A stretch of 64,000 nucleotides of DNA, taken from Symbiodinium sp. CCMP2592 (Eukaryota; Sar; Dinophyceae; Suessiales; Symbiodiniaceae). The notes beneath the pieces are model-generated. The model saw only the letters and a program-made list of their open reading frames with translations, had not been told where the DNA came from and did not search any database. Of the stretch, positions 7,808-57,660 are shown in pieces. A program made the translations under genes and the position numbers. How positions within the stretch are numbered: position 1 is the first letter of the stretch; each line of letters begins with the position of its first letter. Where the stretch lies: contig CAJNDT010003535.1 in assembly GCA_905221615.1 (NCBI GenBank), positions 1 to 64,000 of the forward strand. Reading direction: 5' to 3'.

Positions 7808-7999
7808 TACTTGAAGGTTCATGGGTAGTTGTAAGTAGGGCCATAAGTAGGGTAACTATACTTATAACTCATATTAGGGGACTTCTAACCCCACTTATAA
7901 CTACCACTGAACCCTAGAATCCTACTAGACCCTAAACCCTAAACCCTATAGATCCCTTAGAGGAGCCCTACTTATAACTACCCATGAACCTCCAAGTAG
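7808..7999. mobile_element. MITE family B interrupted by telomere/GATCCC cassette
   Basis: A B element starts TACTTGAAGGTTCATGGGTA. Its right end (CTTATAACTACCACTGAACC, near 7896) is followed by CCCTAAACCCTAAACCC and TATAGATCCCTTAGAGGAGC. A second copy of the B end then follows, closing with CCATGAACCTCCAAGTA. The host end is therefore duplicated around the cassette. Confidence 0.75.
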
Positions 8000-8162
8000 A
8001 ACTCCGATGTCATCCCCAGAGCAACGGCTTTGGCTCCGGCCACTTTACCCTCAGCCGGACGGTGTACTTGTCGTACATTGCGTTGTGCAAGACCAAGTAC
8101 CTGCGGCCCAGGCGCAAACGCTCGAAATACTAATGTGGGAGCCTTTAGGGAATGTTCTAGGG

Positions 8163-8230
8163 GGAAGTGGGTTTTAGGGTTTTAGGGCTTTTTAGGGGGG
8201 GATTCAGGGTTCAGGGTTTAGGGCTTTAGA
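8163..8230. repeat. Degenerate TTTAGGG tract
   Basis: Imperfect TTTAGGG and TTCAGGG units with GGGTTTTAGGG variants. Confidence 0.7.
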
Positions 8231-8754
8231 CTATTATACTGCTGTGGATAGACCAAGCCCCCGCATCACTTTTCATGAATGCCTTTGTAAGATAGCTTTG
8301 GAGTTGAAAGGCTATGGGCCGGAATTGCTCCAATATCCGAAATCCTGTACCGGCCAAGTAGTCCTAGCTCTCTTAAGTAGGCCACGCTTCAGGGTTCAGG
8401 GTTAGCCGGCAATCTTAAGAAGGAGATGCGGGGCTTGAGGCCTCAATCTTGGATACTGCCCCCATACAGTAACAGTCTGTAATAGGGCTACTGTTAAGGT
8501 CCTAATATATCTATATTATGAATATTTTCCAACTGTTGCTGAGTGGGAGCAGTATCCAACCTCAATCGCTTGAAGTATGCATGTACAGGTGGTGCTAGAT
8601 TTCGTCTATCGTCTATCCACCCGATAATTTTTTGAGGAGAACGGCACACACCATGCCCCTGTACAAACAGCAAACATTTGGCAGTAGAGGAAAACGGGTG
8701 CAGAATGAGAGATTAGGCCTTCACAGCGCCCAGAATGGACTAAGCAGGAGTTCT

Positions 8755-9010
8755 TTCTATCTATCTATCTATCGACCTATCTATCTACCTACCCACCTAA
8801 CCTACCTACCTGGTTGCCGAACTGGCTAGGTGTCAGGCACGTGCGCTTTGTTTTTTTATTTGCCTATATACCAAATGTGTCTATGTACTTACTTGCTAGT
8901 TGTCCTAATTTCTCATTCGCCAATCAGTCTACCTGTCTGCTTATCGAACTACCTGTCTACCCTCTATCTGCCGATCTGTCTGTCTGTCCGTCCCCGAGTC
9001 TATCTCATGT
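8755..9010. repeat. (CTAT)n to degenerate CTGT/CTAC region
   Basis: A near-perfect CTAT run at 8757-8790 decays into CTAC, CTGT and CCGT motifs up to about 9005. Confidence 0.75.
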
Positions 9011-9060
9011 AGAGGCCTCAATAATTAGAACCGGGTTTGCGGGTATATTGCTATTATAGA
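9011..9060. mobile_element. MITE family D, partial
   Basis: AGGCCTCAATAATTAGAA is followed by GGGTATATTGCTATTATAGA, matching the left half of family D. The right half is not recognisable. Confidence 0.5.
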
Positions 9061-9313
9061 ATGAGTATACTAAGCCTGCAAAATCCTATGCGAACCCGAA
9101 ACCCTGAACCCTTATTCAGGCCCCTACAGCATCCAGCCCCCGATCTTTCCGGACTTGGCAGGAAGAGCTCTTCTGAACTCTAACGTTCGCCTCACGACCC
9201 CCAAACCCTGCCACCCTTGAAGCGAAACCCTCACCCCAAACTCACATACCCGAAAGCCCCTTAATCCTAAAACCTACCAACGAAACCACAAAGCAAGTAT
9301 ACCCTTAACTGGC

Positions 9314-9338
9314 CATATATATATATATATATATATAT
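9314..9338. repeat. (AT)n microsatellite
   Basis: About 12 uninterrupted AT units. Confidence 0.95.
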
Positions 9339-9613
9339 GCTCACACCCCCCCCCAAGACCTACCGCGAGGTGCTTCGGCTAGCAATGGGTAGTAGAACAT
9401 GTAAGGATTTGAGGAAACCATTAGGATAAAATACACTCATACATAAACAATGGAAACGTATATCGTGTATAATCAATAGCTGAATACACTGTAATGACCT
9501 ACGACGGCGCGACATCGCCGTTGGCGGATTTGGGCAAGCTTCAATGCCTGCAATTGTTTAATAGGATACTGCCTAAATGTTCCGGATATTCATAACTCTG
9601 GTCATATAATGAC

Positions 9614-9818
9614 CATAGGCATAACCCGAAGACAGGACCAAGACAGAACAGTGTCTACATCCTACGTAAGATCGTTAGATGCGCCGGGTAACTTTGTGTT
9701 TGTCATTGTCAGTTTTTAATTTTGTTCATGTACTCATAGGCATAACCCAAAGACGGGACCAAAACAGAACGATGTGTGCATCCTACCTAGGATCGTAATG
9801 AGGGTTACATGTGCACAC
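9614..9818. repeat. Diverged tandem duplication, period about 121 bp
   Basis: CATAGGCATAACCCGAAGAC at 9614 recurs as CATAGGCATAACCCAAAGAC at about 9735. The next 60 bp (ACCAAGACAGAAC, CATCCTAC, GATCGT) also match with substitutions. Confidence 0.75.
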
Positions 9819-9854
9819 ATGTTTATTCTGTGTGAAGCTCTTAGGTTACTCATG

Positions 9855-10980
9855 CGCCAATGTGTATAATAGCTATTACTAGTGCGAATACTAATACTGA
9901 TACTAAGATTTCTATTCCTACGAATAAGGATATTACTGTTCATAACATAATAGGCTTAATGGTTAATACTAGTATTAAAAACTGCACTACTAATTCGAAT
10001 AGTAGTGCTGATGGGAATATTAACACTCCTGGGGATACTAATACGCATATTCTTATTAACTGTTCTCAATATGAATACTAATAGTAGTTGTTTGGAATAC
10101 TAATACTTGTCCGAATATTCATACCAATACTCAGGCTACTGCGATTATACATAATAGGACATTAATATGGGTATTCGTATTAAGGTCAGCATTTCCTTCG
10201 AAAGTATTCATATGCGCATCATAATTCATCTTAATACTCGTACTGATATGAATTAGTATGATTACAAATACTTTTACGAAGACGGGTACTTTCAGTAATA
10301 CCGATACTAACATGAATACTAGTGTTCCTACGAATATTAAAAAAACATACCCATATTGATAGTAATTTTATTTTTTATTTGTTACCAATATACACGCAAA
10401 TGCTAACATTAATACTAATATGCACATAAGTGATACAGTTCCTCCGCAGATTAATGCGCATAGTCTTATTAATTATTCTCAGTATTTATATTCACATTAA
10501 AAAACCTACACTAACATGAATAGCAGTATTACCACTTGATACTCCAGATAATACGATTATGCATAGTATGAACAGCGATACTGCTATTGATACCAATATT
10601 AATGCTCCTACGAATACTAATAATCACGTTCAAACCAAATACAAAAAACAGACACATCAATGTACCAAAGAATCTGTATTTTCACATACCAATAAATAAT
10701 ATACTCGTATACTACTATTCCAATGTTACCATAGACTATGAGACTATACACTGGTTAATATTAACACTAAGAATAAGGCAGAGACTAAGACCAAGACTAA
10801 TACGAATACTAAAACTCACACTAGACATTAACACTACCATTAGTACACCTATTGTATAGACTTATATTCAGACTAATACTAACGCTGACATTGGAATTGA
10901 CATTGACACTGACACCAACACTAACAGTAACACGAATCAACACGCTAGAACGCAGATACTAATACTAACACTAATGCCTA
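9855..10980. repeat. Degenerate AATACT-type AT-rich region
   Basis: More than 1 kb is built from variants of AATACTAATACGAATATT with no exact period. It is lower in GC than its neighbours and lacks telomere-like motifs. The frames it opens are rich in Asn, Thr, Ile and Tyr on both strands and look like shadows of the simple repeat. Confidence 0.65.
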
Positions 10981-11068
10981 ATGCACATCTGAAGACTACT
11001 GCGCGTAAACAACGAAACCATTTCCGATCAAGCATGCTGCGCGCTGTATTGGCTCTAAGGCTCCGAGA

Positions 11069-11492
11069 ACCAAAAATCCAAAAAACCAAAAAACCAAAAA
11101 TCCAAAACCTTTGTCAGGGGGGTCGAAACTTTTGGATTTTTTGGTTTTCCTAGGGTTTTTTTGGTTTTCCAACAGAAAACCAAAAAAATCCAAGGTTTTT
11201 TTGGTTTTCCAGCAGAAATCCAAAAAAATCCAAGGTTTTTTTTGGTTTTCCAGCAGAAATCCAAAAAAACACAGGTGTTTTTTGGTTTTTCACGAGAGAC
11301 ACAGCAGAAAAACCAAAAAAACCTTGTGTTTTTTTGGTTTTCCACCGAAAATCCAAAAAAAGCCATGGTTTCGCCAAGGCAAAGCCCAAAAAACCAAAAA
11401 AGACCTAGGAAAACCAAAAAATCCAAAAGTTTCGGGCCCCTCAGAAAGGCTTTGGATTTTTGGATTTTTGGTTTTTTGGTTTCCGCCGTCGT
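11069..11492. repeat. 424-bp foldback repeat with AACC/TTGG-like tandem core
   Basis: The left arm runs from GAACCAAAAATCC through GGGGTCGAAACTTTTGGA. The right arm is its near-complement, TCCAAAAGTTTCGGGCCCC to TTTTGGTTTCCG. Between the arms are five or six units of GGTTTTCCAGCAGAAATCC spaced by AAAAAAATCCAAGG. Both strands have long low-complexity frames (rich in F, W, G and K), which are artefacts. Confidence 0.85.
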
Positions 11493-11835
11493 ATCGTATG
11501 GTTTCTTTTAATGTTTCTTGCTTATGAATACAGGCATATGAATTTGAAAGCGGACATGAGTAGGCACGACGTTGTAAAGAGACATGACTTCACATCAGCC
11601 ATGATAGAAAGGTATCATCCCCGAAAATTACGCAAAACACGAATCGTATGCCAAACGCGAATCCCTGCCAAGAGAAGGTTTTGACGGTATTTACAATGGA
11701 AAAGAGGCCGAGGTAGGTCATGGGGGGGGGTGTGTCCATATATATATATATAAAAGCCCTCAAGAAAAAAGTCCTTATCCGCAAATGAAAGCCGATGGAT
11801 AAAGTGACTGGCTTGTGAGGCCCCAGAGTCCATAG
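11493..11835. other. No supported gene
   Basis: Unique-looking sequence with a (TA)n at 11740-11752. There are short frames on both strands and nothing recognisable. Confidence 0.4.
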
Positions 11836-11837
11836 GA

Positions 11838-11930
11838 TTTAGGGTTTAGGGTTTAGGATGGAAGGCTTAGGATTGAGGGTTTAGTATTTAGGGTTTAGGA
11901 AGTAGGGTTTGGGGTGTGGAGGGCCTGCGG
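11838..11930. repeat. Degenerate TTTAGGG tract
   Basis: Units of TTTAGGG, TTTAGTA and TTAGGAT occur in succession. Confidence 0.7.
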
Positions 11931-12022
11931 CTTAGGGGTGAGGGGTGGCTCTACAAGAATGGGAAGATCCTGATAAAGGGCTCAATGACGCCTTACTGCT
12001 GCCGCTTAAGGCGGTGTTGCAG

Positions 12023-12215
12023 AATGGGAGTTTCCGAAAATAGGGGGACCCCAATATAGTACCCCAACTAGTAGGATCCTTACTATGAAGGACCCCAAAA
12101 CAAGGTACCCCCATTTTTTGGAAACTCTAAACCCTAAACCCTTTATAGATCCCTTATAGCTCCCTTTAAGGCTGATAGGATCCTTACTATGAGGACCCCA
12201 AAACAAGGCACCCCT
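12023..12215. mobile_element. MITE family E with cassette and duplicated internal segment
   Basis: A complete E element (12023-12128) ends at GGAAACTC. It is followed by AAACCCTAAACCCTTTATAG and ATCCCTTATAGCTCCCTTTA, then a second copy of the E interior (TAGGATCCTTACTATGAGGA, ACAAGGCACCCC). This is the same arrangement as in other cassette-bearing MITEs. Confidence 0.7.
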
Positions 12216-12219
12216 TTCC

Positions 12220-12251
12220 AAATACCCTAAACCCTAAACCCTAAACCCTAA
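12220..12251. repeat. CCCTAAA array bordering the satellite domain
   Basis: Four or five CCCTAAA units lie immediately left of the conserved boundary motif. Confidence 0.85.
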
Positions 12252-12277
12252 ACCTCTTTATCATATAGTAATTTAAA
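12252..12277 (-). other. Satellite/telomere-array boundary motif, reverse copy
   Basis: The reverse complement reads GTTTAAATTACTATATGATA then AAGAGG. It matches the boundary sequences at 17150 (GTTTAAATATACATATGAAA) and 14880. It separates a telomere-like array from a minisatellite. Confidence 0.6.
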
Positions 12278-12900
12278 CCTTAATGAATTCGCGGGCAAGG
12301 CCCAAAATTTCCTACCAACCTTAATGGATTCGCGGGCAAGGCCCAAAATCCTACCAACCTTAATGGATTCGCGGGCAAGGCCCAAAATCCTACCAACCTT
12401 AATGGATTCGCGGGCAAGGCCCAAAATTTCCTACCAACCTTAATGGATTCGCGGGCAAGGCCCAAGATCCTACCAACCTTAATGGATTCGCGGGCAAGGC
12501 CCAAAATCCTACCAACCTTAATGGATTCGCGGGCAAGGCCCAAAATCCTACCAACCTTAATGGATTCGCGGGCAAGGCCCAAAAATCCTACCAACCTTAA
12601 TGGATTCGCGGGCAAGGCCCAAAATCCTACCAACCTTAATGGATTAGCGGGCAAGGCCCAAAATCCTACCAACCTTAATGGGTTCGCGGGCAAGGCCCAA
12701 AATCCTACCAACCTTAATGGATTCGCGGGCAAGGCCCAAAATCCTACCAACCTTAATGGATTCGCGGGCAAGGCCCAAAATCCTACCAACCTTAAGGATT
12801 TAATGGATTCGCGGGCCATTCGCGGGCAAGGCTACCAACCAGCAAGGATGGATTCGCGGGCAAGGCCCAAAATCCTACCAACCTTATTGGATTCGCGCAA
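12278..12900. repeat. 39-bp minisatellite, about 15 copies
   Basis: The unit is AACCTTAATGGATTCGCGGG followed by CAAGGCCCAAAATCCTACC. Some copies carry a 1-2 bp insertion. Because 39 is divisible by three, both strands stay open and encode 13-residue repeats. Uniform conservation across all frames argues for satellite DNA rather than a gene. Confidence 0.9.
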
Positions 12901-12902
12901 GG

Positions 12903-13250
12903 CTAGGGCTTAGGGTTTAGGGCTTAGGGTTTAGGGCCTAGGGTTTGGGCTTTAGGGTTTAGGGCCTAGGGTTTAGGGCCTGGGCTTTAGGGTTTAGGGC
13001 CTAGGGTTTGGGCTTTAGGGCTTAGGGCCTAGGGTTTGGGCTCTAGGGTTTAGGGCCTAGGGTTTGGGCTTTAGGGTTTAGGGCCTTGGTTTTGGGCTTT
13101 AGGGTTTAGGGCCTAGGGTTTGGGCTTTAGGGTTTAGGGCCTAGGGTTTGGGCTTTAAGGTTTAGGGCTTAGGGTTTGGCCTTTAGGGTTTAGGGCCTAG
13201 GGTTTGGGTTCTAGGGTTTAGGGCCTAGGGTTTGGGCTTTAGGGTTTAGG
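12903..13250 (+). repeat. Telomere-like higher-order array, 28-bp unit
   Basis: TTTAGGGCCTAGGG alternates with TTTGGGCTTTAGGG to give a unit of about 28 bp, repeated around 11 times. The reverse-complement array at 13643-14196 makes this one arm of a large inverted repeat. Confidence 0.85.
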
Positions 13251-13252
13251 GT

Positions 13253-13370
13253 TCAGCAGCTCTGGTCGAGCAGTATCTAGTCAAGTTCGCTAGTAAGAAC
13301 CTGGAAGAATACCCACCCACCCAAAGAATCCCAATACATAAGAGTTAGAAAAAAATTTTCGTTACCCTCA
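13253..13370 (+). repeat. Conserved module next to telomere-like array, copy 1
   Basis: It starts CAGCAGCTCTGGTCGAGCAG, contains TCTAGTCAAG and ACCCACCCACCCAAAGAATC, and ends in A/T-rich DNA. Copies are at 14965-15069 (reverse) and 15449-15575. Each abuts a telomere-like array on the CAGCAGCTC side. Confidence 0.75.
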
Positions 13371-13438
13371 GACGACATCAAACCTCAAACCCTACGCCTT
13401 GATTTCTAGCATATACTTATGTTTCTATTGCTGCAGTA

Positions 13439-16355: not shown

Positions 16356-17150
16356 AACCCCACCTACAGGGTTGGTCGAAAAGACCAAAATCGCCTACAG
16401 GGTTGGTCGAAAATCCCCGACAGGGTTCGTCGAAAAGGCCAAAATCCCCTACAGGGTTGGTCGAAAAGGCCAAAATCGCTTACAGGGTTGGTCGAAAAGG
16501 CCAAAATCCTCGACAGGGTTGGTCGGAAAAGGCCAAAATCCCCTACAGGGTTGGTCGAAAAGGCCAAAATCCCCTACAGGGTTGGTCGAAAAGGCCAAAA
16601 TCGCCTACAGGGTTGGTCGAAAAGGCCAAAATCCTCGACAGGGTTGGTCGGAAAAGGCCAAAATCCCCTACAGGGTTGGTCGGAAAAGGCCAAAATCCCC
16701 TACAGGGTTGGTCGAAAAGGCCAAAATCGCCTACAGGGTTGGTCGAAAAGGCCAAAATCGGCTACAGGGTTGGTCGGAAAAGGCCAAAATCCCCTACAGG
16801 GTTGGTCAGAAAAGGCCAAAATCCCCTACAGGGTTGGTCGAAAAGGCCAAAATCGGCTACAGGGTTGGTCGAAAAGGCCAAAATCGGCTACAGGGTTGGT
16901 CGGAAAAGGCCAAAATCCCCTACAGGGTTGGTCAGAAAAGGCCAAAATCCCCTACAGGGTTGGTCGAAAAGGCCAAAATCGGCTACAGGGTTGGTCGGAG
17001 AAGGCCAAAATCGGCTACAGGGTTGGTCAGAAAAGGCCAAAATCCCCGACAGGGTTGGTCGGAAAAGGCCAAAATCCCCGACAGGGTTGCTCGAAAAGGC
17101 CAAAATCGGCTACAGGGTTGGTCCCGAAAAGGCCAAAATCCCTTACAGGG
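16356..17150 (+). repeat. 31-bp minisatellite, about 25 copies, with higher-order structure
   Basis: The unit is ACAGGGTTGGTCGAAAAGGC followed by CAAAATCCCCT. Variants are GGAAAAGG or AGAAAAGG, and CGCCT, CGGCT or CTCGA. Since 31 is not a multiple of three, the same peptide cycles through all three forward frames. I read no gene from this. Confidence 0.9.
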
Positions 17151-17177
17151 TTTAAATATACATATGAAAGAGAGGAT
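17150..17177 (+). other. Satellite/telomere-array boundary motif, copy 3
   Basis: GTTTAAATATACATATGAAA followed by GAGAGGATTTAGG separates the 31-bp satellite from a TTTAGGG array. It is related to 14880 and to the reverse copy at 12252. Confidence 0.6.
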
Positions 17178-26126: not shown

Positions 26127-26204
26127 GCTTGCTTACCCAGCTGCGCTCCCAGGACATGAGTAACTCCAGCAAGTCCTCGTGGCGAGTTGCAGGCGCGTGG
26201 GCCA

Positions 26205-26376
26205 CAAGAATTAGAATAGGGTTCCTTTCAAGGGGTCTGTAAGGGCTATAAGGGATCCATAAGGGTACAATAATATAGGGGCCAAAATCATTAGAATAGG
26301 GTGTTGGGGCCCATTATACCATAAACATAATAAGGAACCACCAAAATAGTTTAGGTAGTTGTTGAGGCCCCTATAC
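26205..26376. mobile_element. MITE family D with cassette and duplicated left end
   Basis: AGAATTAGAATAGGGTTCCT begins a partial D end. It is followed by the cassette (TTTCAAGGGGTCTGTAAGGG, ATAAGGGATCCATAAGGG) and then a full D element starting TATAGGGGCCAAAATCATTA and ending GTTGAGGCCCCTATA. Confidence 0.7.
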
Positions 26377-28137: not shown

Positions 28138-28265
28138 TAAGCCAGCATAGATCCCTTAAATTAAAGGAACCCTTTAACTTCCTAAGTCCCCTCTACTAAA
28201 TCTTTATCATAGCCCTTATCGTTGCCCTTATAGATCCCTTTAAAGGAACCCTTTAGGTTACTAAG
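28138..28265. mobile_element. Decayed MITE family A end with cassette
   Basis: AACTTCCTAAGTCCCCT resembles the A right end. It is followed by GCCCTTATAGATCCCTTTAA and AGGAACCC, then GTTACTAAGTCCCTAGACCC and TCC, a second A end. The host end is again repeated around the cassette. Confidence 0.5.
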
Positions 28266-28269
28266 TCCC

Positions 28270-29000
28270 TAGACCCTCCCTAAACCCCTAAACCCAAACC
28301 CTAAACCCCTTAAACACTAAACCCTAAACCCTAAGTCCCATGATCCGCCATCAACCCTCAAACCCAGGCTCGCGGCCTGTCGGCCAACACGCGAAAGGCC
28401 GGTGTTCCCACCTGGCACTGCTGAGAGTTTTGAGGCTGAACTAAGAGATTCTTACCTTAACGTGAAGGGTTTCGGGGTTTAGGGCTTTAGGGGTTTAGGG
28501 TTTAGCGTGTAAGGATTAGGGGTTTAGGGCTTGAGGGCTTACCTTAACCTACCAAGATCTGTTTTTTGTAGGGCCCCGAAAGATTCCACGCTCGGGCTTA
28601 GAACAAGAACCTACAAACCAAGGAGGGTTTAGTGGGTTTAGGAACAGTAACACAAGCTCACTGTGTTAGGATCTTGCTTACAAGTAACCCCGTCCGCCCG
28701 ACCACCACCAAGGAACAACAACGAAAACACTACACCTGGCTTTCTGAAACCCCCAACGCGGTTGTCGGCTAGCAACGCGGGATGTAAAGCTTCTGTGTAG
28801 GGGTTGAAAAGGCTTGGGCGTTCGGGATTAGAGTCTACGGAATTGGGGTGCTTAGAGGTTCGGGGTTTACCGCTTTAGCCATGTAACGTAGGGCCATCAT
28901 TGGCAAGCACTTGCCGGATTTTTGAGCGACCCGCTCCTTCTTCGGGGAAGGCCCTCCGCTTCTAGCGTCTGAAACTTAGTGTGTAGGACTGTCTGAATCC
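28270..29000. other. No supported gene
   Basis: Short CCCTAAA or TTTAGGG tracts (28270-28340, 28470-28530) lie in otherwise unique DNA, with nothing else recognisable. Confidence 0.35.
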
Positions 29001-30689: not shown

Positions 30690-30771
30690 TTTAAGGGTCC
30701 CTTGGGGTTTCCTTTGCGGGTCCCTCTAAAGGGATCTATAGGGATTCTATGAGGGTATAGGGTTTAGGGCC
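30690..30771. repeat. Cassette-type sequence abutting a family B MITE
   Basis: TTTAAGGGTCCCTTGGGG, CTCTAAAGGGATCTATAGGG and TATAGGGTTTAGGGCC run straight into the B left end. No duplicated B end is visible upstream. Confidence 0.5.
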
Positions 30772-30885
30772 TACTTGGGGGTTCATGGGAAGTTGTAAGT
30801 AGGGCTACAAGTAAGGTAACTGTTCTTCTAACCCGTATCAAAGGACTTATAACCCCACTTATAACTATCCATGAACCTCCAAGTA
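30772..30885. mobile_element. MITE family B, full copy
   Basis: TACTTGGGGGTTCATGGGAA to ACTATCCATGAACCTCCAAG then TA, 114 bp. Confidence 0.85.
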
Positions 30886-35026: not shown

Positions 35027-35220
35027 AGTTTCCGAAAACAAGGGGTACGTTTAAAGGGATCCTTATATAGGGTTCCTGAAAGGGGGCTATAAGGGATCTA
35101 TAAAGGGTTTAGGGTTTAGAGTTTCCGAAAATGAGGGATACCTTATTTTCGGGTCCTTATGATAAGGATCCTACTATTTAGGGTGCTGTATTAGGGTCCT
35201 CTATTTCCGGAAACTCCCAG
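35027..35220. mobile_element. MITE family E with cassette and duplicated end
   Basis: AAGTTTCCGAAAACAAGGGG (partial E end) is followed by ACGTTTAAAGGGATCCTTAT, AAGGGATCTATAAAGGG and TTTAGGGTTTAG. A full E element then runs from AGTTTCCGAAAATGAGGG to CCGGAAACTCCCAG (35118-35220). Confidence 0.75.
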
Positions 35221-36185: not shown

Positions 36186-36335
36186 GTATAATATAGGGGC
36201 ATTCATGACTAGAATAGGGCTCCTTTAAATGGGTATATAAGGACTACTACCAGGGGTCTACAAGGGTACTATGATATAGGGCCTTATTCATTAGAGTAGG
36301 GTTTTGGGGCGCATCTGTAAATATGATCAGGAACA
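36186..36335. mobile_element. MITE family D with cassette; right half missing
   Basis: A D end (ATATAGGGGCATTCATGACT, AGAATAGGG) is followed by CTCCTTTAAATGGGTATATA and GGTCTACAAGGGTACTATGA. A second D left end follows (TATAGGGCCTTATTCATTAG, AGTAGGGTTTTGGGG). Confidence 0.65.
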
Positions 36336-37713: not shown

Positions 37714-37926
37714 TTCTTGGAGGGTCGGGGGACTTAGTAAGTAGGTAGTAAGTAGACTTCTACGTACACAGAAAGGGACCCTATTTGGGGTTATGGTACT
37801 TATAAGTCCCTAAAACAACCAGTTACTAAGCCCCCTAAACCCTAAACCCTAAACCCTTACAGAATCCCTATAGATCCCTTTAAAGGAACCCTAAAGGAAC
37901 CAGTTACTAAGTCCCCCGACCCTTGA
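37714..37926. mobile_element. MITE family A with cassette and duplicated right end
   Basis: The A left end (CTTGGAGGGTCGGGGGACTT) runs to AACCAGTTACTAAGCCCCC. There the sequence switches to CCCTAAACCCTAAACCC and CCCTATAGATCCCTTTAAAG, then GAACCAGTTACTAAGTCCCC and CGACCC, a second right end. Confidence 0.8.
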
Positions 37927-38050: not shown

Positions 38051-38055
38051 TGTTT

Positions 38056-38456
38056 AATAAAGGGGCCTTAGTAATTAGAATAGGGTCTCGGGGTATATTA
38101 TAGCTTTTGGCTTTAATAAAGGGGCCTTAGTAATTAGAATAGGGTCTCGGGGTATATTATAGCTTTTGGCTTTAATAAAGGGGCCTTAGTAATTAGAATA
38201 GGGTCTCGGGGTATATTATAGCTTTTGGCTTTAATAAAGGGGCCTTAGTAATTAGAATAGGGTCTCGGGGTATATTATAGCTTTTGGCTTTAATAAAGGG
38301 GCCTTAGTAATTAGAATAGGGTCTCGGGGTATATTATAGCTTTTGGCTTTAATAAAGGGGCCTTAGTAATTAGAATAGAGTCTCGGGGTATATTGTACTA
38401 AAAATACAAAGGAGCCTTAAGGAATAATGTTGGTAGTTACTGAGGCTTCTATACTA
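38056..38456. mobile_element. MITE family D with left half amplified six times
   Basis: Six near-identical 59-bp units start AATAAAGGGGCCTTAGTAAT and contain GAATAGGGTCTCGGGGTATA (starts at 38056, 38115, 38174, 38233, 38292 and 38351). The last unit continues into a single D right half ending ACTGAGGCTTCTATACTA. Confidence 0.85.
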
Positions 38457-40577: not shown

Positions 40578-40756
40578 CAGGGGCCTTATTGATTGGAATA
40601 GGGTCCCTTTAAAGGCTTCAAATTCAAAGGGATCCATCGGGGATCAAAATGAGCTCTAGAGTACTAGGGGCCTGAATGGTTAGAATGGGGTGTAGGATTT
40701 ATTGCAGTATCACCCCTCTTTCTTACACCCCGGTTCCTCGTCGCCAGCCCCTACAG
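40578..40756. mobile_element. MITE family D with cassette and duplicated left end
   Basis: ACAGGGGCCTTATTGATTGG, AATAGGGTCCCTTTAAAGGC and AAAGGGATCCATCGGGG lead to a second D left end (TAGGGGCCTGAATGGTTAGA). A diverged right end (CGGTTCCTCGTCG, CCAGCCCCTACA) follows. Confidence 0.65.
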
Positions 40757-40796
40757 ACATTCAGATTGCAACTCCGAACAACCCGAAGCTGTAATT

Positions 40797-40899
40797 ACAG
40801 GGGCCTCAATAATTAGAACAGGGCGTTGGGGCCCATTATACTGTAGTTACAATAAGGAACCACCCGAAATAGTAAAGGTAATTCTTAAGGGCCCTATAG
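40797..40899. mobile_element. MITE family D, full copy
   Basis: ACAGGGGCCTCAATAATTAG to AATTCTTAAGGGCCCTATA, 103 bp. Confidence 0.8.
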
Positions 40900-48359: not shown

Positions 48360-48957
48360 CTAAACTCTACAAATGGACAAGGGAATAGAGTGGTCGCTGA
48401 GCAGCAGCGACCATGCCACTTTCCCGACTTTGATCAACACGAGCTCCTCGTCCTTGTACAGGATGAACACATGTACCACGCCCAGTCTGCTGGAGCCGCC
48501 TGTCTCCGTCGACAAGCCAGGCACCTTCAGCAGCTGCCTGGACACCAGTCTGGAGATGCTAATGTTGCCTTGGTAGCCAACCAGCTCCTCCAGACTGGCA
48601 CGCAGGTCGCCCCAGGTGCGGAGGCAGGTGCTATCCAAGCTCTCCAAGGGCTTCCAGCGGCCAGCGGAAAGCCTCATGCGCAAGAGCTCGTAGTCGTTAG
48701 TGCCTGCAAGCTCCATGGCGGTCTGCGACGTCCGGAGGTCTTTAGTTCGGATCACATACACTCACGTGACGCCCACGCTGCGCGCTGGTAGTGTGTGACC
48801 GAGAGGAGTGAGCCGTTGGGCCCCGAGCAGTAACTCTTAACCCTTCACCGTAACCCTTTACACCCAAACCTTGGGCGGCATCGAAACCAACCGCTGAATC
48901 CGAGTGGCCAAAGCTGTCGCTTGCCGGCGCCGGCTCCTTCTTGCCCCAGGTTGGCAT
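48360..48957 (-). CDS. Two-exon gene model, 152 residues, unknown product
   Basis: Exon 1 (48957-48862) starts with a true ATG and reads MPTWGKKEPAPASDSFGHSD for its first 20 residues. GGT|GTAAAG gives a strong donor in phase 0. Exon 2 (48722-48360) follows GTCGCAG and reads on in phase 0 from TAMELAGTNDYELLRMRLSA to a stop. The intron would be 139 bp. The C-terminal part (VVHVFILYKDEELVLIKVGK) has beta-strand-like alternation. The antisense frame over exon 2 is also open but looks like a shadow. No family recognised. Flanks are CCCTAAA on the left and a TACTATAAGGG repeat on the right. Confidence 0.4.
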
Positions 48958-48961
48958 TATA

Positions 48962-49160
48962 CGGCCTACCGTAAGGGTGCTATGCGGGGAGCTATAAGGG
49001 GTATTACAAGGGTATCAGGACGCTACAAGGTACCAGAAGGGGCAGTATAGTGCCATGCAGGGTATTACAAGGCAAGGGTAGTACAAGGGTACCATAAGGA
49101 TACTACCAGGGTACTGTAAGGGGTACTATACAGGTACTGTAAGAGTACTATAAGGGGATA
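48962..49160. repeat. Degenerate TACTATAAGGG array
   Basis: About 15 units such as GGTGCTATGCGGGGAGCTAT, AAGGGTATTACAAGGGTATC and GGGTACTGTAAGGGGTACTA. Confidence 0.8.
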
Positions 49161-50069: not shown

Positions 50070-50210
50070 ATACGTTTAAAGGGATCCTTATATAGGGTTC
50101 CTTAAAAGGATTTTTCAGGGATCTATGAAGGGTTTAGGGTATAGAGTTTCCGAAAATTAGGGGGTACCTTATTTTTTGGGGTAGGGTACCCGATTTTCGG
50201 AAACTCCCAT
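50070..50210. mobile_element. MITE family E, internally deleted, preceded by cassette
   Basis: TACGTTTAAAGGGATCCTTA, TATAGGGTTCCTTAAAAGG and GGGATCTATGAAGGG then TTTAGGG precede an E element of only 69 bp (AGTTTCCGAAAATTAGGGGG to GATTTTCGGAAACTCCCAT). The cassette matches 35050-35115 closely. Confidence 0.7.
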
Positions 50211-50627: not shown

Positions 50628-50733
50628 GCTTGGAGATGGGTAGTTAGAAGTGGGGCTATAAGTCCCCTGAGTATATATATATATATACCCTACTTGTAAC
50701 CCTACTTAAAACTACGCATGACCCTCCAAGTAG
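50628..50733. mobile_element. MITE family B with TA-repeat core
   Basis: CTTGGAGATGGGTAGTTAGA to AAACTACGCATGACCCTCCA then AGTA. The centre is replaced by a (TA)n run at 50671-50688. Confidence 0.7.
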
Positions 50734-50877
50734 GCCCTAAACCCCTACGTGTACCCTTATAGAACCCCTATAGATCCCTTTAACCGCCAAGTTCTGGCCT
50801 ACTGCAAGCGCTTTGAATCCCCATGGTGTTGAAGATCGAAGGTTTCGGGCTTTCGGGGTGCAGCATCAGGGGGGGTG

Positions 50878-51779: not shown

Positions 51780-52079
51780 TCAATGAACGCACCGAAAAGG
51801 TTGAACCCCAAAAAAAACCTTCCCACAACTTGGAAAATGCTGGAACTGGGGTCGTGGCATTGGTCTCTTCAACGATGGTGCCTGTGCTGACTGCTCACTG
51901 CGAAGGGGCTCTCTGCGTAAAGAGCTGAAAATCAAAACCCTGTGCCCCCAAACAAGGGAAACGTGCAGAAAGTGCTGCAAATACCGAGCACTGTGCCTTT
52001 GACAGAAGTTACATTGTAAAGACGGCAAAACCAAAACGAGAAGAAGGTTGCACTTTGAAGGAGCGAAAGTGCTGTACAT
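51780..52079 (-). CDS. ATG-initiated 99-codon frame, unknown
   Basis: It starts with a true ATG and has a hydrophobic N-terminal third (NLLLVLVLPSLQ) and four cysteines. It ends at 51780. There is no repeat bias, but no splice or family support either. It may be chance openness. Confidence 0.25.
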   Translation of the reverse strand: MYSTFAPSKCNLLLVLVLPSLQCNFCQRHSARYLQHFLHVSLVWGHRVLIFSSLRREPLRSEQSAQAPSLKRPMPRPQFQHFPSCGKVFFGVQPFRCVH

Positions 52080-52118
52080 ACCGCGGAGTTTGCCTGTCCA
52101 CAGGCAAAGGGATGATCA

Positions 52119-52203
52119 TAATATAGGGGCCTGAATACTTAGAATAGGGTTTTGGGGCCCGTTTTAAAACAACTATAATGTGGAGCCCTTAAGACAGTAT
52201 AGG
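52119..52203. mobile_element. MITE family D, truncated by adjacent B element
   Basis: TATAGGGGCCTGAATACTTA, GGGTTTTGGGGCCC and AGACAGTATAGG run directly into TACTTGGAGG of a B element. The D right end is absent. Confidence 0.7.
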
Positions 52204-52317
52204 TACTTGGAGGTTCATGGGTAGTCATAAGTGGGGTTATAAGTCTCCTAACATGGGTTATAAGAATAGTTACTCTACTTATAACCCTAGTTCTAGCTAC
52301 CCATGAACCTCCTAGTA
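52204..52317. mobile_element. MITE family B, full copy
   Basis: TACTTGGAGGTTCATGGGTA to ACCCATGAACCTCCTAGTA, flanked directly by D on the left and C on the right. Confidence 0.85.
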
Positions 52318-52322
52318 GGATC

Positions 52323-52593
52323 CTAGAGACTCCAATCTCCCTTGGTTAAGGAATATACTTTAATCTACGGTAGGATCCCTAATACGATTTAATGTATATT
52401 CCTTAATTCAGGAATAAACCGTAAATTGTAGTCGGATCCCTAGTAGGATCTAAGGTATATTCCTTCATTAAGGGATTTTAGAGTACCCCAAAACCCTAAA
52501 CCCAATAGATCCCTTAAGGGATCCCTTTTAATGAACCCACCCGAAACCCTAAACCCTAAACCCCTGAACCATTAAGGGATATTGGTTTCTCTG
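52323..52593. mobile_element. MITE family C with duplicated core and cassette
   Basis: CTAGAGACTCCAATCTCCCT starts a C element whose centre (GGTATATTCC, GGATCCCTA) occurs twice. Its end CATTAAGGGATTTTAGAGTA is followed by ACCCTAAACCCAATAGATCC and CTTAAGGGATCCCTTTT and more CCCTAAA. A second C end follows (ATTAAGGGATATTGGTTTCT, CTGGG). Confidence 0.7.
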
Positions 52594-52666
52594 GGATTTC
52601 ACTGCCGCCTTGCCTGCTGGCGAGGGAAGAGGGAGGCGGTTGGGTGCCGCCTCATCAACCTCAGTT

Positions 52667-52707
52667 ACAGTAGAAGCCCAAAAGTTGGAAACCCGGGTTG
52701 CACCACA
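52667..52707. mobile_element. MITE family J, solo end
   Basis: TTACAGTAGAAGCCCAAAAG and TTGGAAACCCGG match the J right end in reverse, with no partner. Confidence 0.6.
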
Positions 52708-52929
52708 CAACCGTCATCCCACACTCAGCGGATAAGGGCAAACGGCATAGGACTTGCCCCTCTGAACTTTCCGACCCCAAACAAGACCCTGAACCCTGAA
52801 CCTGAGATTTGTGCAGATTGCAAGAAGAACGACCTAAACCCTACACCCTTATTGAAATGGGAACCCGGAAGCCCTAAACCCTGGACCCCAATTAAACCCT
52901 AAACCCTAGTAAGCCCTAAGCCCTAGTCC

Positions 52930-53190
52930 TTTGGGGGTTCGGTGTTCCTTTAAGGGTCCCTTTGGGGATTGCGTCTTTTTTAAGGCATCTTTTCAGGATT
53001 CCTTTACAGGTTCCTTTACATGATCCGTTAAGGGTTCCTGTCCGGGCTCCTTTCAGGGTTCCGGCAAGGGTTGCATTACGGGTTCCGGCAAGGGTTGCAT
53101 TAAGGGTTCCTGTAACACATCCTTCAAGGGTTCATGTCAGGATTGAGCTAAGGGCTCTTGCAGGGGTTCTTTTAAGGGATCCTTGAAGGA
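52930..53190. repeat. Degenerate GGTTCCTTTAAGG tandem repeat
   Basis: About 17 units of 15 bp vary around GGTTCCTTTAAGG and GGTTCCGGCAAGG. The 15-bp period keeps one frame open. The motif resembles the cassette's GGTTCCTTTAAAGG. Confidence 0.7.
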
Positions 53191-53221
53191 ATCCATCTTG
53201 CAAAGGCCAACAAAAAGAACC

Positions 53222-53265
53222 CTTATCACTACCCATGAATCTCCGAGTAGATCCCTTTAAAGGAA
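53222..53265. mobile_element. MITE family B end followed by cassette motif
   Basis: CACTACCCATGAATCTCCGA then GTAGATCCCTTTAAAGGAAC. The rest of the B element is missing. Confidence 0.55.
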
Positions 53266-53358
53266 CCCCCAGAGAGCTGGCGGCCCGCGCTGGCAGAGGC
53301 GGCGGCGTCCCAAAGAAAGGCCGCGGCGACGGTGGCGGCTCCTACATGAGCTGCTGTA

Positions 53359-53475
53359 TTTGGAGGCCCAGGGGACTTAGTAAGTAGGTTATAAGTAGGG
53401 GTACAGTTGGGGCAACTCTATTTAGGGTACTTATAACCCGACTTATAACCTACTTGCTAAGTCCCCTGGGCCTCT
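53359..53475. mobile_element. MITE family A2, full copy
   Basis: ATTTGGAGGCCCAGGGGACT to TGCTAAGTCCCCTGGGCCTC, then a short (CT)n. It sits at the left edge of the TGA-rich open frame, and an A2 end fragment sits at its right edge (54487). Confidence 0.8.
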
Positions 53476-53484
53476 CTCTCTCTC

Positions 53485-53650
53485 TCTGTCGCGCAGAGCG
53501 TGTCCACAGGTGAGACCGCTCGTCAGCAGCCCTGTCAATGGGACTAACGCGCGGGGAAAACATACAATCGGCGGAAGCATACAGGTTGGGGAACAAGTTC
53601 AAGGAAATTACATACGCAGTGGACATGTCTATACAGGGCTCTTCGCTACC
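53485..53650 (-). CDS. Second exon-like frame in the 53.5-54.5 kb island
   Basis: The minus strand is open for about 50 codons, including DMSTAYVISLNLFPNLYASA and SPIDRAADERSHLWTRSAR. It is in a different frame from the main island frame upstream, so it may be a separate small frame or a frameshifted continuation. No family recognised. Confidence 0.2.
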
Positions 53651-53732
53651 CTTTTCGGGTGAGACGATGGCAGGACTAGGGTAAATTTTCCGGCCACCCT
53701 GGGGAAAAGCTTACTCTGAAGGGACTCTTCTA

Positions 53733-54487
53733 TAGTCGCTGATAAAGCTCACCCGACGCACAAGGGGAATTCGCGACCACTCGCCGATAAAAAATGGATC
53801 ACCCGGTAAGTCAGTTGACGTTGGCATAGAGCATGGGAAGGCCGTGGTCCCCCGGTTCGCCTCATGTCGGCTCCCCTAGACAGCATTGCGGAATACTTCT
53901 AACGAGGCGCTTGCTAAGCTGGGGTCAATGTCATCCCGTGGGAAATTGTTGTACAAGCTTTCTCAGATCATATGCATGGTAATCCAGAAATGCGTCCCGT
54001 CATAAAGTGTAGACATGCACCTGCAGACCTGACAGTCTGATGGGGTGTTCCAGAGGTTTCCGGTTGCGTCATTGGGAGCCACCGGTCTCCCATGGTTGGC
54101 AAAACACGTAGGCAAAAGCGGCAGGGTCAAGTGGAACAAACGTAGGGAGGCTCGCCACTCCCACATCGGTCTGGAAATAGAGTGCGGGATGACATTCAGA
54201 CCCACATAAAACCTCCAGAATAATTTGTTGGAAAGCATCATACCAGTCGAAGGTGATGGTCAGGTAGGAGAAGACTAAGGAGAGCCCATCCTCCACTAAT
54301 AGTCTGATCATCGTAGCGGTGGAAGTGAATACCGACCTGCAGTGGACGGTCAGGCGCATGTGCTTGTATTGGCAATCGGCAACGAGTCATAATGGCAATC
54401 CTTGCGGGACATAGTGGCAATCTTGCGGTTCGAGTGAAGTTGGTACCATGGCGGCACGGATAAGGAAAGGGACGATCCACGTGCCAG
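53733..54487 (-). pseudogene. Long frame interrupted only by TGA; possible organelle-derived or decayed gene
   Basis: One minus frame has no TAA or TAG for about 250 codons. It is interrupted only by TGA, eight times (54387, 54069, 54000, 53931, 53925, 53862, 53811, 53799; lowest coordinate of each triplet). The first in-frame TAG is at 53730. TGG also occurs in the frame. Legible stretches include MIRLLVEDGLSLVFSYLTIT, ECHPALYFQTDVGVASLPTF and DAFLDYHAYDLRKLVQQFPT. UGA is read as Trp in many mitochondria and in chromerid plastids, so transferred organelle DNA is a possibility. A nuclear pseudogene is the alternative. I cannot name the protein. Confidence 0.4.
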
Positions 54488-54511
54488 AACCTCCCCTGGG
54501 CCTCTGAGTAA

Positions 54512-54645
54512 GCCTACTTGTCGGGTATCATGGGGAACCTTTAGGTATCATGGGGAACTAAAGGTTAACCTTGGTGGTGATATAGGGACTATACTACCCA
54601 AAAAAAGGTTGAAGGTTACCTCCTCTACTACTAGATAAAAGTTAC
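54512..54645. repeat. Dispersed repeat K, copy 2
   Basis: TACTTGTCGGGTATCATGGG with a small internal duplication (GGTATCATGGGGAAC twice), TATAGGGACTATACTACCC and CTCTACTACTAG. It matches 33022-33131. Confidence 0.65.
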
Positions 54646-54703
54646 TACATCTAGGGCGAGGGCTCCCTCAATGGATCTATAAGGGATCTATAGGCTTCAG
54701 GGT

Positions 54704-54814
54704 GCCTGAAGACTCCAATATCCCTGAATTAAGGAGTATGCCTTAAATTCTAGAAGGATCCCTCATAGGATCTAAGGTCTATTCCTGAATTGAGAAATAT
54801 TGGAATCTCAAGGT
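54704..54814. mobile_element. MITE family C, diverged copy
   Basis: GCCTGAAGACTCCAATATCC and ATATTGGAATCTCAAGGTA, with the core AAGGATCCCTCATAGGATC. It is preceded by AATGGATCTATAAGGGATCT, a cassette-like tract. Confidence 0.7.
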
Positions 54815-55033
54815 AAGGGTGACTATAAGTGCGACTACAAAGGTACTGGAAGGCTAGAAGGGAACTGTGACGGTTTAGGGTTTAGAGTTTGGGTTCAAGT
54901 GCTTCGGGTTTAGGTTGCAGGGTGTAGGGTTTAGGGTTGAGTGCTTTTGATTATTTCTTGGTTTGTCGGGGCTTTGGGTTTAGAGCGTGAGGTACAGGTT
55001 TCCATGATTTTGGCCAGGGTCGACTGGCCCACC

Positions 55034-55154
55034 TATACAAAGGCCTAAATGATGAGTAATAAGAATTCCCTTCGAGTCCGTACGCATTCATTATGCTACG
55101 TAGTTACAATGCTACTATATACTATACCCTAGTCTAGTCATTAAGGCCCCTATA
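55034..55154. mobile_element. Diverged MITE family D
   Basis: ATACAAAGGCCTAAATGATG and GTCATTAAGGCCCCTATACT are inverted ends. The interior is AT-rich and poorly conserved. Confidence 0.5.
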
Positions 55155-55429
55155 CTCGAGTTTAGGGCTGCGGCTCAACACATAGGGTGGAGCCACAAAC
55201 GAAGTGCAACGTTGAAGCTGCAAGCTACTTATGAAAGACTTCATGTTTACTGTCGCGGCTTGGAAGGCTGTTCGATTCGGATTTGCACGGACGGCCAACC
55301 TGTCAACAGGCAGCATGCTACAACCTCAACAGACTAGGTTCCGTAGGTTTTGTAGGAGGTTCCATGACCAGCCCTGAACAAGCACAAGGCTGGGTCTTGA
55401 AGTACGGCCCCTCAACTCCCAAACCCCAA

Positions 55430-55730
55430 ACTCTAAACCCCTAGACCACCCAAATCCCTAAACAACCCCTCAACCAACCTCTAGACCTTAAACTCTAAAC
55501 CCTCAACCCTAATCCCTAAAACCCCAGACCCTAAACCCTAAACCCTCAACCCTAATCCCTAAACCCCTAGACCCTAAACCCTCAACCCTCAACCCTAATC
55601 TCTAACCACTAGACCCTAAACCCTAAACCCTCAACCCTAAACCCCAAACCCCTAGACCCTAAACCCTAAACCCTCAACCCTAATCCCTCAACCCCTAGAC
55701 CCTAAACCCTAAACCCTCACTCTTAATCCC
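55430..55730 (-). repeat. Long CCCTAAA tract with CCCTCAACCCTAATCC units
   Basis: A higher-order unit of roughly 45-50 bp (CCCCTAGACCCTAAACCCTA and CCCTCAACCCTAATCCCTA) recurs four to five times. Confidence 0.85.
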
Positions 55731-55794
55731 TAAACAGGGGTTTTGACACCCCTGTAAAGCCCGACTCCGGCCGCTCCATCACTATGTGCGGATC

Positions 55795-55905
55795 AACAGG
55801 GTTTAGGGTTTAGGGTCGGGGTTTAAGGTTGGGGTTTAGGGTTGGGGTTGAGGGCTTAGGGTTTAGGGTTGGGGTTTAGGGTTTAGGATTTAGGATTTAG
55901 GGTAA
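55795..55905 (+). repeat. TTTAGGG / TTGGGG array
   Basis: About 15 units including GGTTGGGGTTTAGGG. Its orientation is opposite to the 55430 tract. Confidence 0.85.
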
Positions 55906-56141
55906 CGCTGGCATGCGGCTTCCTTGTTTGGTTGAATGTACGGGGCTTACATGATGATTTTTAATATTTGGAATGACTCTTTCGGGCACGCAGCCTAACC
56001 AAAAATCTGCCTCGCTAAGACCCTTAACGCAAAACGCCCATCGGAAGTGGTTAATGATAAGACTGGCGCGTTGCAGCACATGGCACTATACAGCTGTGCT
56101 CAGAAACTCGGTGTCTGACGCTGAAGCAGTTCGAGGCTAGT

Positions 56142-56437
56142 GCAGGAACCTGGTTAAGAATTGGGTTCCTTTAAAGGGGTCTATAAGGGTTACTATAAGG
56201 GATCTATAAGGGTACTATTATAATGTCGGAACCTGGTTAAGAACTGGGCCTTTATTAGGGTTCCTTATATGGATGGTTGTCAAAATTATGGTCCCTTTTT
56301 GGGTACCCTATATATTAGGTGCCGTATTATATTAGGGACCCAAAAAGGGACCCTAATGTTGACAACCACCCATATGAATCCTACTATTTTGGTGTTATAG
56401 GCCCGGGGTTTCTTAGTCGGTTCCTACATTATACTAT
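56142..56437. mobile_element. MITE family G with cassette and nested family H
   Basis: A G end (GCAGGAACCTGGTTAAGAAT) is followed by the cassette (GGGTTCCTTTAAAGGGGTCT, AAGGGATCTATAAGGG). A second G start (AATGTCGGAACCTGGTTAAG) follows. An H element (56271-56373) interrupts it after CCTTATAT, and the G right half resumes at GAATCCTACTATTTTGGTGT, ending GTCGGTTCCTACATTAT. Confidence 0.8.
56271..56373. mobile_element. MITE family H nested in G
   Basis: ATGGTTGTCAAAATTATGGT to CTAATGTTGACAACCACCCA. About 103 bp, inside the G element. Confidence 0.85.
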
Positions 56438-56614
56438 TTCGGGGGTTCCTTATGTCTGGTGTAATATATCCCCCAAAGCCCTTATTATAGTACCCTTATA
56501 GAGCCCTTAGGGTTTAGGGTTTTTCATGTCGAGGCTTTAGGGCTGAACTATGAATTCTACCTTAACCCCAAGCAACCTACCCTTTTAAAGACTTATATGA
56601 ACTTAAACCCTGTA

Positions 56615-56805
56615 CTGTAGGAACCTGACTAAGAAACCCCGAGGGGCTATAACACCAAAATAGTAGGATTCATATGGGTGGTTGTCAAAATCAGGGTCCC
56701 GTTTTGGGTCCCTAATATAGTACGGCACCTAATATTTAGGGTACCCCAACAAGGGATCATATTGTTGACAACCACCCATACAAAGAAATCATATCAGGGA
56801 ACCTT
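56615..56805. mobile_element. Inverted second copy of the G right half with nested H
   Basis: ACTGTAGGAACCTGACTAAG through CACCAAAATAGTAGGATTCA is the reverse complement of the G right half at 56374-56437. An H element (56676-56780) begins at the same junction. The remaining G half beyond H is not clearly recognisable. Confidence 0.75.
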
Positions 56806-56829
56806 CCTTTTCCAGGTAAACCCTCAACC

Positions 56830-56895
56830 CTCTAAACCTAAACCCTAAACCCTAAACCCCAAAACCCCTAAACCCTAAACCCTAAACCCTAAACC
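56830..56895 (-). repeat. CCCTAAA array
   Basis: Nine units with CCCCAAAA interruptions. Confidence 0.85.
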
Positions 56896-57271
56896 CCTCT
56901 CGGAAGCCCCGCTGCTTCAGGACTTCGGCTTACAGTTACGGTCTGGGGTTTAGGGTTTAGGGCGGTTCGGTTTCAGTTTGAGGGAACCCCTGAATCTTAA
57001 CCTTGAACCAAATCGGATCGGACCTCTCTTCCTTCCTCACACACTGCGGTGGTAGAAGAAACACTGGTGAAACCAGCGGCACGTGAGAAGCTCTCAGATG
57101 TTCTGTGGAGCTCTCTGCCCTGCAGCTTGACTTGCGTGCTTTAAGGTTTCTGAGCTAGGGTCCTGTTTCTGCCTGAAGCCATGAGGATTTCTACCCCTAA
57201 ACTTCCATCGCCTGGACCCAAAGCGCAAAAGCCAGACCAGGCCCCCCGAACCTTTGAACTCAAGGCCTCCC

Positions 57272-57387
57272 TATAGTAAACCCCAAAAGTTGGAAACCTG
57301 ATTAAGGACAAAAAGTGCTGGGATTACCTTTGCATTACTCTTAAGGATAGAGGCTATTGGGTTTCCAACTTTTGGGCTTCTACCATA
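57272..57387. mobile_element. MITE family J, full copy
   Basis: TATAGTAAACCCCAAAAGTT and ACTTTTGGGCTTCTACCATA are inverted. TGATTAAGGACAAAAAGTGC matches the copy at 24418. Confidence 0.8.
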
Positions 57388-57480
57388 AACCCTTAAACCC
57401 CAAGGCCACAAGCTCAAGAGATTCCGAAACAAGAGACCCACCAACATCGGGCCGCATTCGGAAGCCTGAAGCTCCCTAAA

Positions 57481-57660
57481 CCCAAAGACTCCAATATCGG
57501 TTGACTAAAGTAGATACCTTAAATCATGGTAGAGATACTACCTAACTTAAGGTATATTCCGTCATTAAGGGATGTTGGAGTCTCTGGGAGCCCGAAAACT
57601 TAAACCCTATAGATCCCTTACAGATCCCTCAAAGGAAGCCTAGCCCTTGGTATTCCTTAA
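57481..57660. mobile_element. MITE family C with cassette and duplicated end
   Basis: A C element (57481-57588; CCCAAAGACTCCAATATCGG to GATGTTGGAGTCTCTGGGA) is followed by AACCCTATAGATCCCTTACA and GATCCCTCAAAGGAAG. GGTATTCCTTAACTTGGGGA then CATTG is a diverged second C arm. Confidence 0.6.

Follow-up and report, generated by a model that had tools for sequence, protein, structure and literature searches.

Several families of miniature inverted-repeat transposable elements (MITEs) of Acropora corals, the CMITEs, have one 75-bp internal sequence in common while their terminal repeats differ; the sections of the report considered here give the origin of the shared part as unknown and mention tandem arrays (PMC2872659). 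At vertebrate double-strand breaks, short telomeric repeats, sometimes together with a non-telomeric piece from telomerase RNA, were inserted in one step as interstitial telomeric sequences (ITS and TERC-ITS), and some of them carry target duplications, namely 6/130 loci in rodents and 4/25 in primates in the parts consulted (PMC2246262, PMC8537989). In dinoflagellates the telomere repeat is TTTAGGG, as stated in the portions consulted of PMC11508785 and PMC11453091. Here we describe, in 64,000 nucleotides of Symbiodinium sp. CCMP2592 (contig CAJNDT010003535.1, positions 1 to 64,000; hereafter the window), a telomere-like cassette that adjoins the tips of MITEs of different families and is often preceded by a second copy of the same tip. 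Degenerate TTTAGGG/CCCTAAA repeats (328 dimer matches against 0.15 expected) and short inverted-repeat elements are densely packed in this 64-kb window.

Read with the G-rich strand forward, an extra copy of the MITE tip (L') is followed by the cassette and then by the MITE or its start, which provides the right copy of the tip. This cassette arrangement is real, abundant and directional. The host elements have terminal inverted repeats, with facing tip pairs of mostly ~100-130 bp in six families of the window; families A and B are related and have their outermost bases in common. The individual features are:

7966..7996, minus strand: family B extra tip copy L'
7914..7965, minus strand: cassette (B)
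7810..7913, minus strand: family B MITE, cassette-side end short by ~6 bases, outer flanks TA/TA
12172..12223, minus strand: family E, long extra copy of the left half
12128..12171, minus strand: cassette (E)
12026..12127, minus strand: family E MITE
26199..26221, plus strand: family D extra tip copy L'
26222..26273, plus strand: cassette (D), without TTTAGGG tail
26274..26375, plus strand: family D MITE
28257..28279, minus strand: family A-like end copy
28194..28256, minus strand: first cassette (A)
28170..28193, minus strand: second family A-like end copy
28142..28169, minus strand: second cassette (A)
30718..30773, plus strand: cassette (B), no clear L'
30774..30883, plus strand: family B MITE, cassette at R-type end
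35027..35048, plus strand: family E extra tip copy L', outer flanks AGAT/AGAT (flanks by eye)
35049..35118, plus strand: cassette (E)
35119..35218, plus strand: family E MITE without first two tip bases
36192..36219, plus strand: family D extra tip copy L'
36220..36274, plus strand: cassette (D)
36275..36301, plus strand: family D end, remainder truncated
37900..37923, minus strand: family A extra tip copy L'
37844..37899, minus strand: cassette (A)
37716..37843, minus strand: family A MITE, tip on cassette side eroded
40579..40603, plus strand: family D extra tip copy L'
40604..40664, plus strand: cassette (D)
40665..40690, plus strand: family D end, remainder truncated
50071..50143, plus strand: cassette (E), L' nearly absent, outer flanks ATTT/ATTT (flanks by eye)
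50144..50208, plus strand: family E MITE, shortened
50787..50796, minus strand: possible family B tip remnant, 8-10 bp, weak (by eye)
50731..50786, minus strand: cassette (B)
50629..50730, minus strand: family B MITE
52571..52595, minus strand: family C extra tip copy L', outer flanks AT/AT (flanks by eye)
52485..52570, minus strand: cassette (C)
52322..52484, minus strand: family C MITE, tip on cassette side eroded
53248..53268, minus strand: short cassette (B)
53222..53247, minus strand: family B end, truncated
54660..54709, plus strand: cassette (C), no clear L'
54710..54809, plus strand: family C MITE
56145..56165, plus strand: family G extra tip copy L'
56166..56227, plus strand: cassette (G), without TTTAGGG tail
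56228..56424, plus strand: family G MITE
56487..56512, minus strand: cassette adjoining damaged family D MITE
57651..57673, minus strand: family C extra end copy, diverged
57589..57650, minus strand: cassette (C)
57481..57588, minus strand: family C MITE

The initial annotation of this DNA had named eleven places where a cassette lies between two copies of one MITE end, the duplication being about 15-35 bp long. A MITE end adjoining the cassette was present at 11/11 of them and a clear second copy at 9/11. At 57481 (C) the second copy has diverged, and its start lies 12 bases inside the end. The family A place at 28138 has two ends in alternation with two cassettes, and a normal MITE does not follow. 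Six further places combine cassette and MITE (B 30718-30883, B 50629-50795, B 53222-53268, C 54660-54809, E 50071-50208 and the damaged D at 56487-56512). L' was clear in 0/6 of these, so the tip duplication is frequent, not universal. Counted by script, the 17 window cases had the host on both sides in 11, on the right only in 5 and on the left only in 1. The length range proposed for the duplication proved too narrow, since by eye it extends to ~52 bp at 12172 and to possibly just 8-10 bp at 50787; overall, it runs from about 8 to 55 bp. Ends of the same family and orientation lying 10-150 bp apart formed 35 pairs in the window, 9 of them with a cassette between. The 26 cassette-free pairs comprise 13 of family C, the end of which resembles itself, 12 in one D tandem array (38053-38394) and 1 D pair at 40665-40823. 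That array holds ~5.8 tandem repeats of the D end at a period of 59 bp, indicating that end duplication can also arise without a cassette.

Cassettes consist of units that have AGGG at their end (TTCCTTTAAAGGG, ATCTATAAGGG, ATTCTATAAGGG and TTTAGGG), and a TTTAGGG tail is found in most A, B, E, H and J cassettes and is absent from the D, G and N cassettes examined. We searched the genome that includes the window, 1,098,105,373 bases in 5,383 contigs, in which pattern counts stand for matches, not elements. For the 14-base core GATCCCTTTAAAGG we counted 14,582 exact copies there, whereas the reversed control string gave 2; a 33-base form of the cassette gave 645, and its control 0. In the window, profiles of the core built with one family left out recovered the cassettes of that family among the matches listed, with E values of 2.8e-6 (A28), 4.6e-6 (A37), 9.4e-7 (B30), 1.4e-6 (C54), 4.2e-6 (D26), 9.5e-6 (E12) and 1.2e-7 (G56) for the stronger ones and of 3.8e-4 (B7), 2.4e-4 (C52) and 7.5e-3 (E50) for the weaker ones. 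The sharing of the cassette is therefore not due to chance. Away from recognised MITEs, L025 and L097 (G000 C3, C15) have tandem arrays of cassette units, a possible template source, and TACTATAAGGG-like units make up a degenerate array at 48950-49160, again outside any recognised MITE.

Hosts were counted around 81 core matches, which represent 68 loci taken in contig order (L001-L028, L059-L098; contigs C1-C15) from 100 listed places, three places already in the 33-base set and those on C18-C23 being left out; the 81 include two double reads (L084/L085, L089/L090) and tandem arrays. With 11 MITE-family consensuses, the same family was recognised on both sides in 33, on the right only in 18, on the left only in 5 and on neither side in 25. 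Read backwards, the same matches gave 1, 7, 4 and 69, and 1000 random positions gave 9, 101, 64 and 826, these positions having been drawn from the window and from L009-L028, loci that were themselves picked around core matches. The consensuses of A-E and G stem mainly from the window, those of H, I, J, M and N from loci that were then counted among the 81; with A-E and G alone, 19 matches had the host on both sides and 14 on the right only (together 33/81). A, B, C, D, E, H, I, J, M and N thus served as hosts on both sides in this sample, as did G in the window, so that about ten MITE families carry a shared block within family-specific ends, the arrangement that characterises CMITE-like shared-core MITEs. 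Duplications at chance level, which the initial annotation had named as a reason to give up the pattern, do not describe these data (33/81 against 9/1000). A consensus-free duplication test, which counts tandem arrays too, gave a score of at least 16 in 33/79 cases against 11.8% of cross pairs; a generic inverted-repeat test downstream of cassettes placed 4/34 above the 5% control line.

The orientation was strongly biased. In the genome, the core 20-50 bases before the A/B tip had its G-strand pointing into the element 2,235 times and in the opposite direction 91 times; for the core 15-45 bases before the E tip the counts were 721 and 19, each opposite count covering one spacing range only. 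Such numbers would not be expected if MITEs had landed in telomere-like DNA by chance. Positions along the tip are less uniform. In the copies examined, the left copy ends ~8-57 bases in, and the right copy starts between the tip and ~25 bases inside, or 38 in L004 if counted as family G. By eye, it begins inside the element in L016 (C), L011 (I) and L004 (G). The 40 copies that have a telomeric tail comprise 22 distinct pairs of family and right start in five families, some of them one base apart and possibly alignment noise. The overlap of the right junction with the TTTAGGG period averaged 1.83 against 0.49 for random joins, a difference that the start-setting alignment may inflate; it reached at least 3 bases in 13/40 against 4.6% of random joins, and the overlap of 9 in L045 is probably tail taken as MITE. 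Bases common to the left end and the cassette are, by eye, TATAAG in B, CCTT in E, TATA in I and CCC in H. An apparent extension of the duplication outside the MITE in L013 was dropped, the same GGCC flank being present in other copies.

Either end of family B can be involved: the cassette lay at the L end in 10, at the R end in 11 and unclear in 3, compared with 15, 1 and 1 in family A. The GGCC-TACTTGG junction of family B was found on L-type ends in 3, on R-type ends in 6 and unclear in 1. These end-type counts, like those on right junctions, L' variants, cassette similarity and outer flanks, also include the 33-base set and some window copies. Constancy of duplication length and position, for which the initial annotation had suggested a check, was not observed: lengths vary and junctions differ within families. 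Since the junction positions differ in this way and both B end types occur, cassette capture seems to have happened repeatedly, at either B end and with a single polarity. For the same reasons, and with different hosts, the cassette does not behave as part of one ancestral long MITE. Family B elements at L053 and L086 have a reversed cassette on the other end too; both ends may be modified there. Deviations of L' from the consensus, counted at positions where the right copy was readable, were shared with its own right copy in 10/101 cases and with other family copies in 24/559 (permutation p 0.026, 53 composites), which weakly supports that L' was copied from its own host and diverged later.

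The composites also seem to spread as such. Of the 20 A/B composites with both outer tips found by script, 13 had matching outer 2-bp flanks, compared with a shuffle mean of 8.8 (p 0.005); TT/TT and not TA accounts for two of these matches. Short target-site duplications, as MITEs have, are accordingly seen in A/B composites, and by eye in single C and E cases, with exceptions: AGAT/AGAT at E 35027, ATTT/ATTT at E 50071 and AT/AT at C 52322-52595, where the inner tips are eroded. One E-type right junction has 823 exact copies and one E-type left junction 407, and the nearest neighbour of a cassette has the same host in 60/87 against 0.14 by chance, the host being taken as the best right-side match (doubtful for L002, L024, L078 and L087). 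Mobilisation of the composites as units is supported by these data. From the amplified junctions and the clustering by host, most cassette copies are likely descendants of amplified composites and not each an event of its own. The pattern noted initially is real and more extensive than described there. At G000:C213:301592-301980, three E-type cassette junctions follow each other at 168-bp spacing, which suggests tandem arrays of composites.

Composite MITEs with the order of tip copy, cassette and MITE, one polarity, many hosts and genome-wide abundance need an explanation. The mechanism that we infer, and to which we would give somewhat under an even chance, is repair synthesis at a cut tip that takes up telomere-like repeats and rejoins near the tip, after which the longer element transposes. 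A MITE would be cut at one tip by transposase, or where its palindrome stalls a fork. From the broken flank, the tip would be copied inward for ~8-55 bases until synthesis stalls, leaving an L' of variable length, and this inward direction would set the polarity of the cassette. The new 3' end may then pair with the abundant G-rich repeats (TTCCTTTAAAGGG, ATCTATAAGGG, telomeric TTTAGGG) and copy one to several units. Joining of the product to the MITE at or near its tip, partly via a few bases of microhomology, would produce the right copy. The old tip copy would turn into the new end, the lengthened element would spread by transposition, and target duplications outside L' and the right copy would arise at that step. 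Telomerase may add the last TTTAGGG units; nothing here requires it. Of the two causes considered in the initial annotation, break repair with filler or template switching is favoured by polarity, near-tip placement and right-junction microhomology; a mobile sequence making long target duplications remains as its rival. The preferred reading is in line with the MITE on the right in 51/81 core matches, against 8/81 read backwards. Several observations weigh against it. Random filler should vary more than the core that adjoins L' does from family to family, the D, G and N cassettes examined have no telomeric tail, and 25/81 core matches have no host and 5 a left host only. The left-junction overlap, with a median of -1 (n=49), points neither way. 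Inner 2-bp flanks match too (6/11), so that an inner insertion would still be compatible with the outer match taken by itself. By eye, no outer match was seen at E 12026, B 30718, B 50629, C 57481 and G 56145, and a 4-bp match was present in 2/5 simple E copies (2048, 27238) and not at 7648, 38783 and 58065. No capture event was caught in isolation.

Rejoining always at the exact tip, which we had considered, is weakened by L016, L011 and L004. These three fit backward-jump template switching, or true insertion with target duplication, better than rejoining of an intact tip. The latter possibility leads to the main rival, suggested by a well-defined block that recurs in different hosts: the cassette may itself be a tiny mobile element, perhaps a retroposon with an RNA ending in UUUAGGG that enters MITE tips by target-primed reverse transcription. 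Such a minute, possibly RNA-copied, telomere-tailed cassette would home directionally to transposon tips, make long target duplications and travel as its host's new end. The recurrence of a defined ~75-bp sequence in hosts A, B and H, with a 33-base part of it repeated exactly 645 times, agrees with this, as do the duplications inside the element in the three loci just named, seen by eye, and the contrast between the two cassette ends, which is usually TTTAGGG where the right copy begins and variable at the opposite end. The 3' side, which a retroposon like the short interspersed elements (SINEs) would keep constant, is mostly telomeric but host-specific. By reading, duplications were met only in MITEs or arrays, and no clear target duplication was seen in non-MITE unique DNA among the 68 loci. 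With variants that cluster by host and tailless D, G and N cassettes in addition, we consider a mobile cassette unlikely, if still a serious competitor.

The same clustering by host, the amplified junctions and the presence of one GGCC-TACTTGG junction on both L-type and R-type B ends could also be read as the outcome of a few old captures, with the end module (tip copy, cassette, tip) spreading within a family by recombination in the inverted repeat of 25-30 bp that its members and ends have in common and, rarely, from one family to another via G-rich microhomology. Many junction positions exist within single families, however, and families with different ends would still need their own capture, which makes this account rather improbable. 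If the insert had been reverse-transcribed from a telomerase-type RNA and lengthened by telomerase at a break, it would resemble vertebrate TERC-ITS in outline, with a non-telomeric block followed by telomeric repeats; in the parts consulted, duplications are a minority there and no transposon preference appears (PMC2246262, PMC8537989). The non-telomeric block in our cassettes has a modular and repetitive build and varies from copy to copy, in contrast to a single RNA gene, and we regard such an origin as very improbable. The most ordinary account, that simple MITEs landed by chance in telomere-like arrays and that tandem MITE pairs give the duplications, can draw on the very high density of TTTAGGG-like repeats, on the many A/B MITEs that sit at TA within repeats and on the cassette-free array of D ends. 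It scarcely deserves credence in view of polarities of ~25:1 (A/B) and ~38:1 (E), which speak strongly against it, of the host counts at random positions and of inner tips that are eroded in several composites.

Some further searches delimit the setting. Within the 64-kb window, ARAGORN found no tRNA and Rfam no family, and a Pfam scan of 140 of 166 stop-to-stop frames (at least 75 aa, of enough complexity) gave 9 families with one member each, none convincing (best E 1.6e-4). A 520-bp query had no match among plasmids, the family B tip pattern had 0 matches in viral and genome contig collections, and a 20-mer pattern of the cassette 0 in the viral contig collection. The spliced-leader string was absent from the 341 kb examined. 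DVNP is a nucleoprotein of dinoflagellates and some large viruses; the genome gave 25 matches to it (best E 3.4e-23), several of them tandem, with an array at G000:C5235:371869-378234, against 0/14 control genomes, a result that by itself makes a dinoflagellate source very probable. Two minisatellite regions lie in the window, at 12276-12800 (39-bp period, 96% matches) and at 16363-17152 (31/126-bp periods, 90/96% matches).

These composites point to a recurrent and directional route by which many MITE families may gain the same telomere-like module beside a duplicated tip and then multiply. With thousands of junctions, one can ask how new elements arise from repair at the ends of transposons, and whether dinoflagellate chromosomes favour telomeric or telomere-like repeats as filler. 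Should the cassette itself turn out to be mobile, it would be a parasite of parasites, of which we know no example. Among the matches listed in the openly licensed PMC literature, we found no description of the arrangement of tip copy, cassette and MITE.

In abortive gap repair after transposon excision, partial end copies are joined by microhomology filler that is usually varied and local; here, by contrast, one filler type recurs in about ten families and in one polarity. For the MER6 DNA transposon that carries the HCD-V domain, we know of no tip duplication. In that case a short foreign module, derived from a SINE, likewise rides a DNA transposon, yet the portions of the paper at hand name a single host transposon (PMC6887750). 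The ITS and TERC-ITS differ in that, as far as the sections consulted describe them, they concern few loci, show no transposon preference and are not amplified within a mobile element (PMC2246262, PMC8537989). The CC[C/T]T termini and TTAA duplication of the CMITEs differ from the ends seen here, where A/B tips are CTTGGAGG and the flanks mostly TA. CMITEs are piggyBac-like, with TTAA target duplications and about 1,600 estimated copies, and in the sections examined have neither telomeric repeats nor a duplicated tip around the shared part; what they have in common with the present composites is a shared internal block within family-specific ends (PMC2872659).

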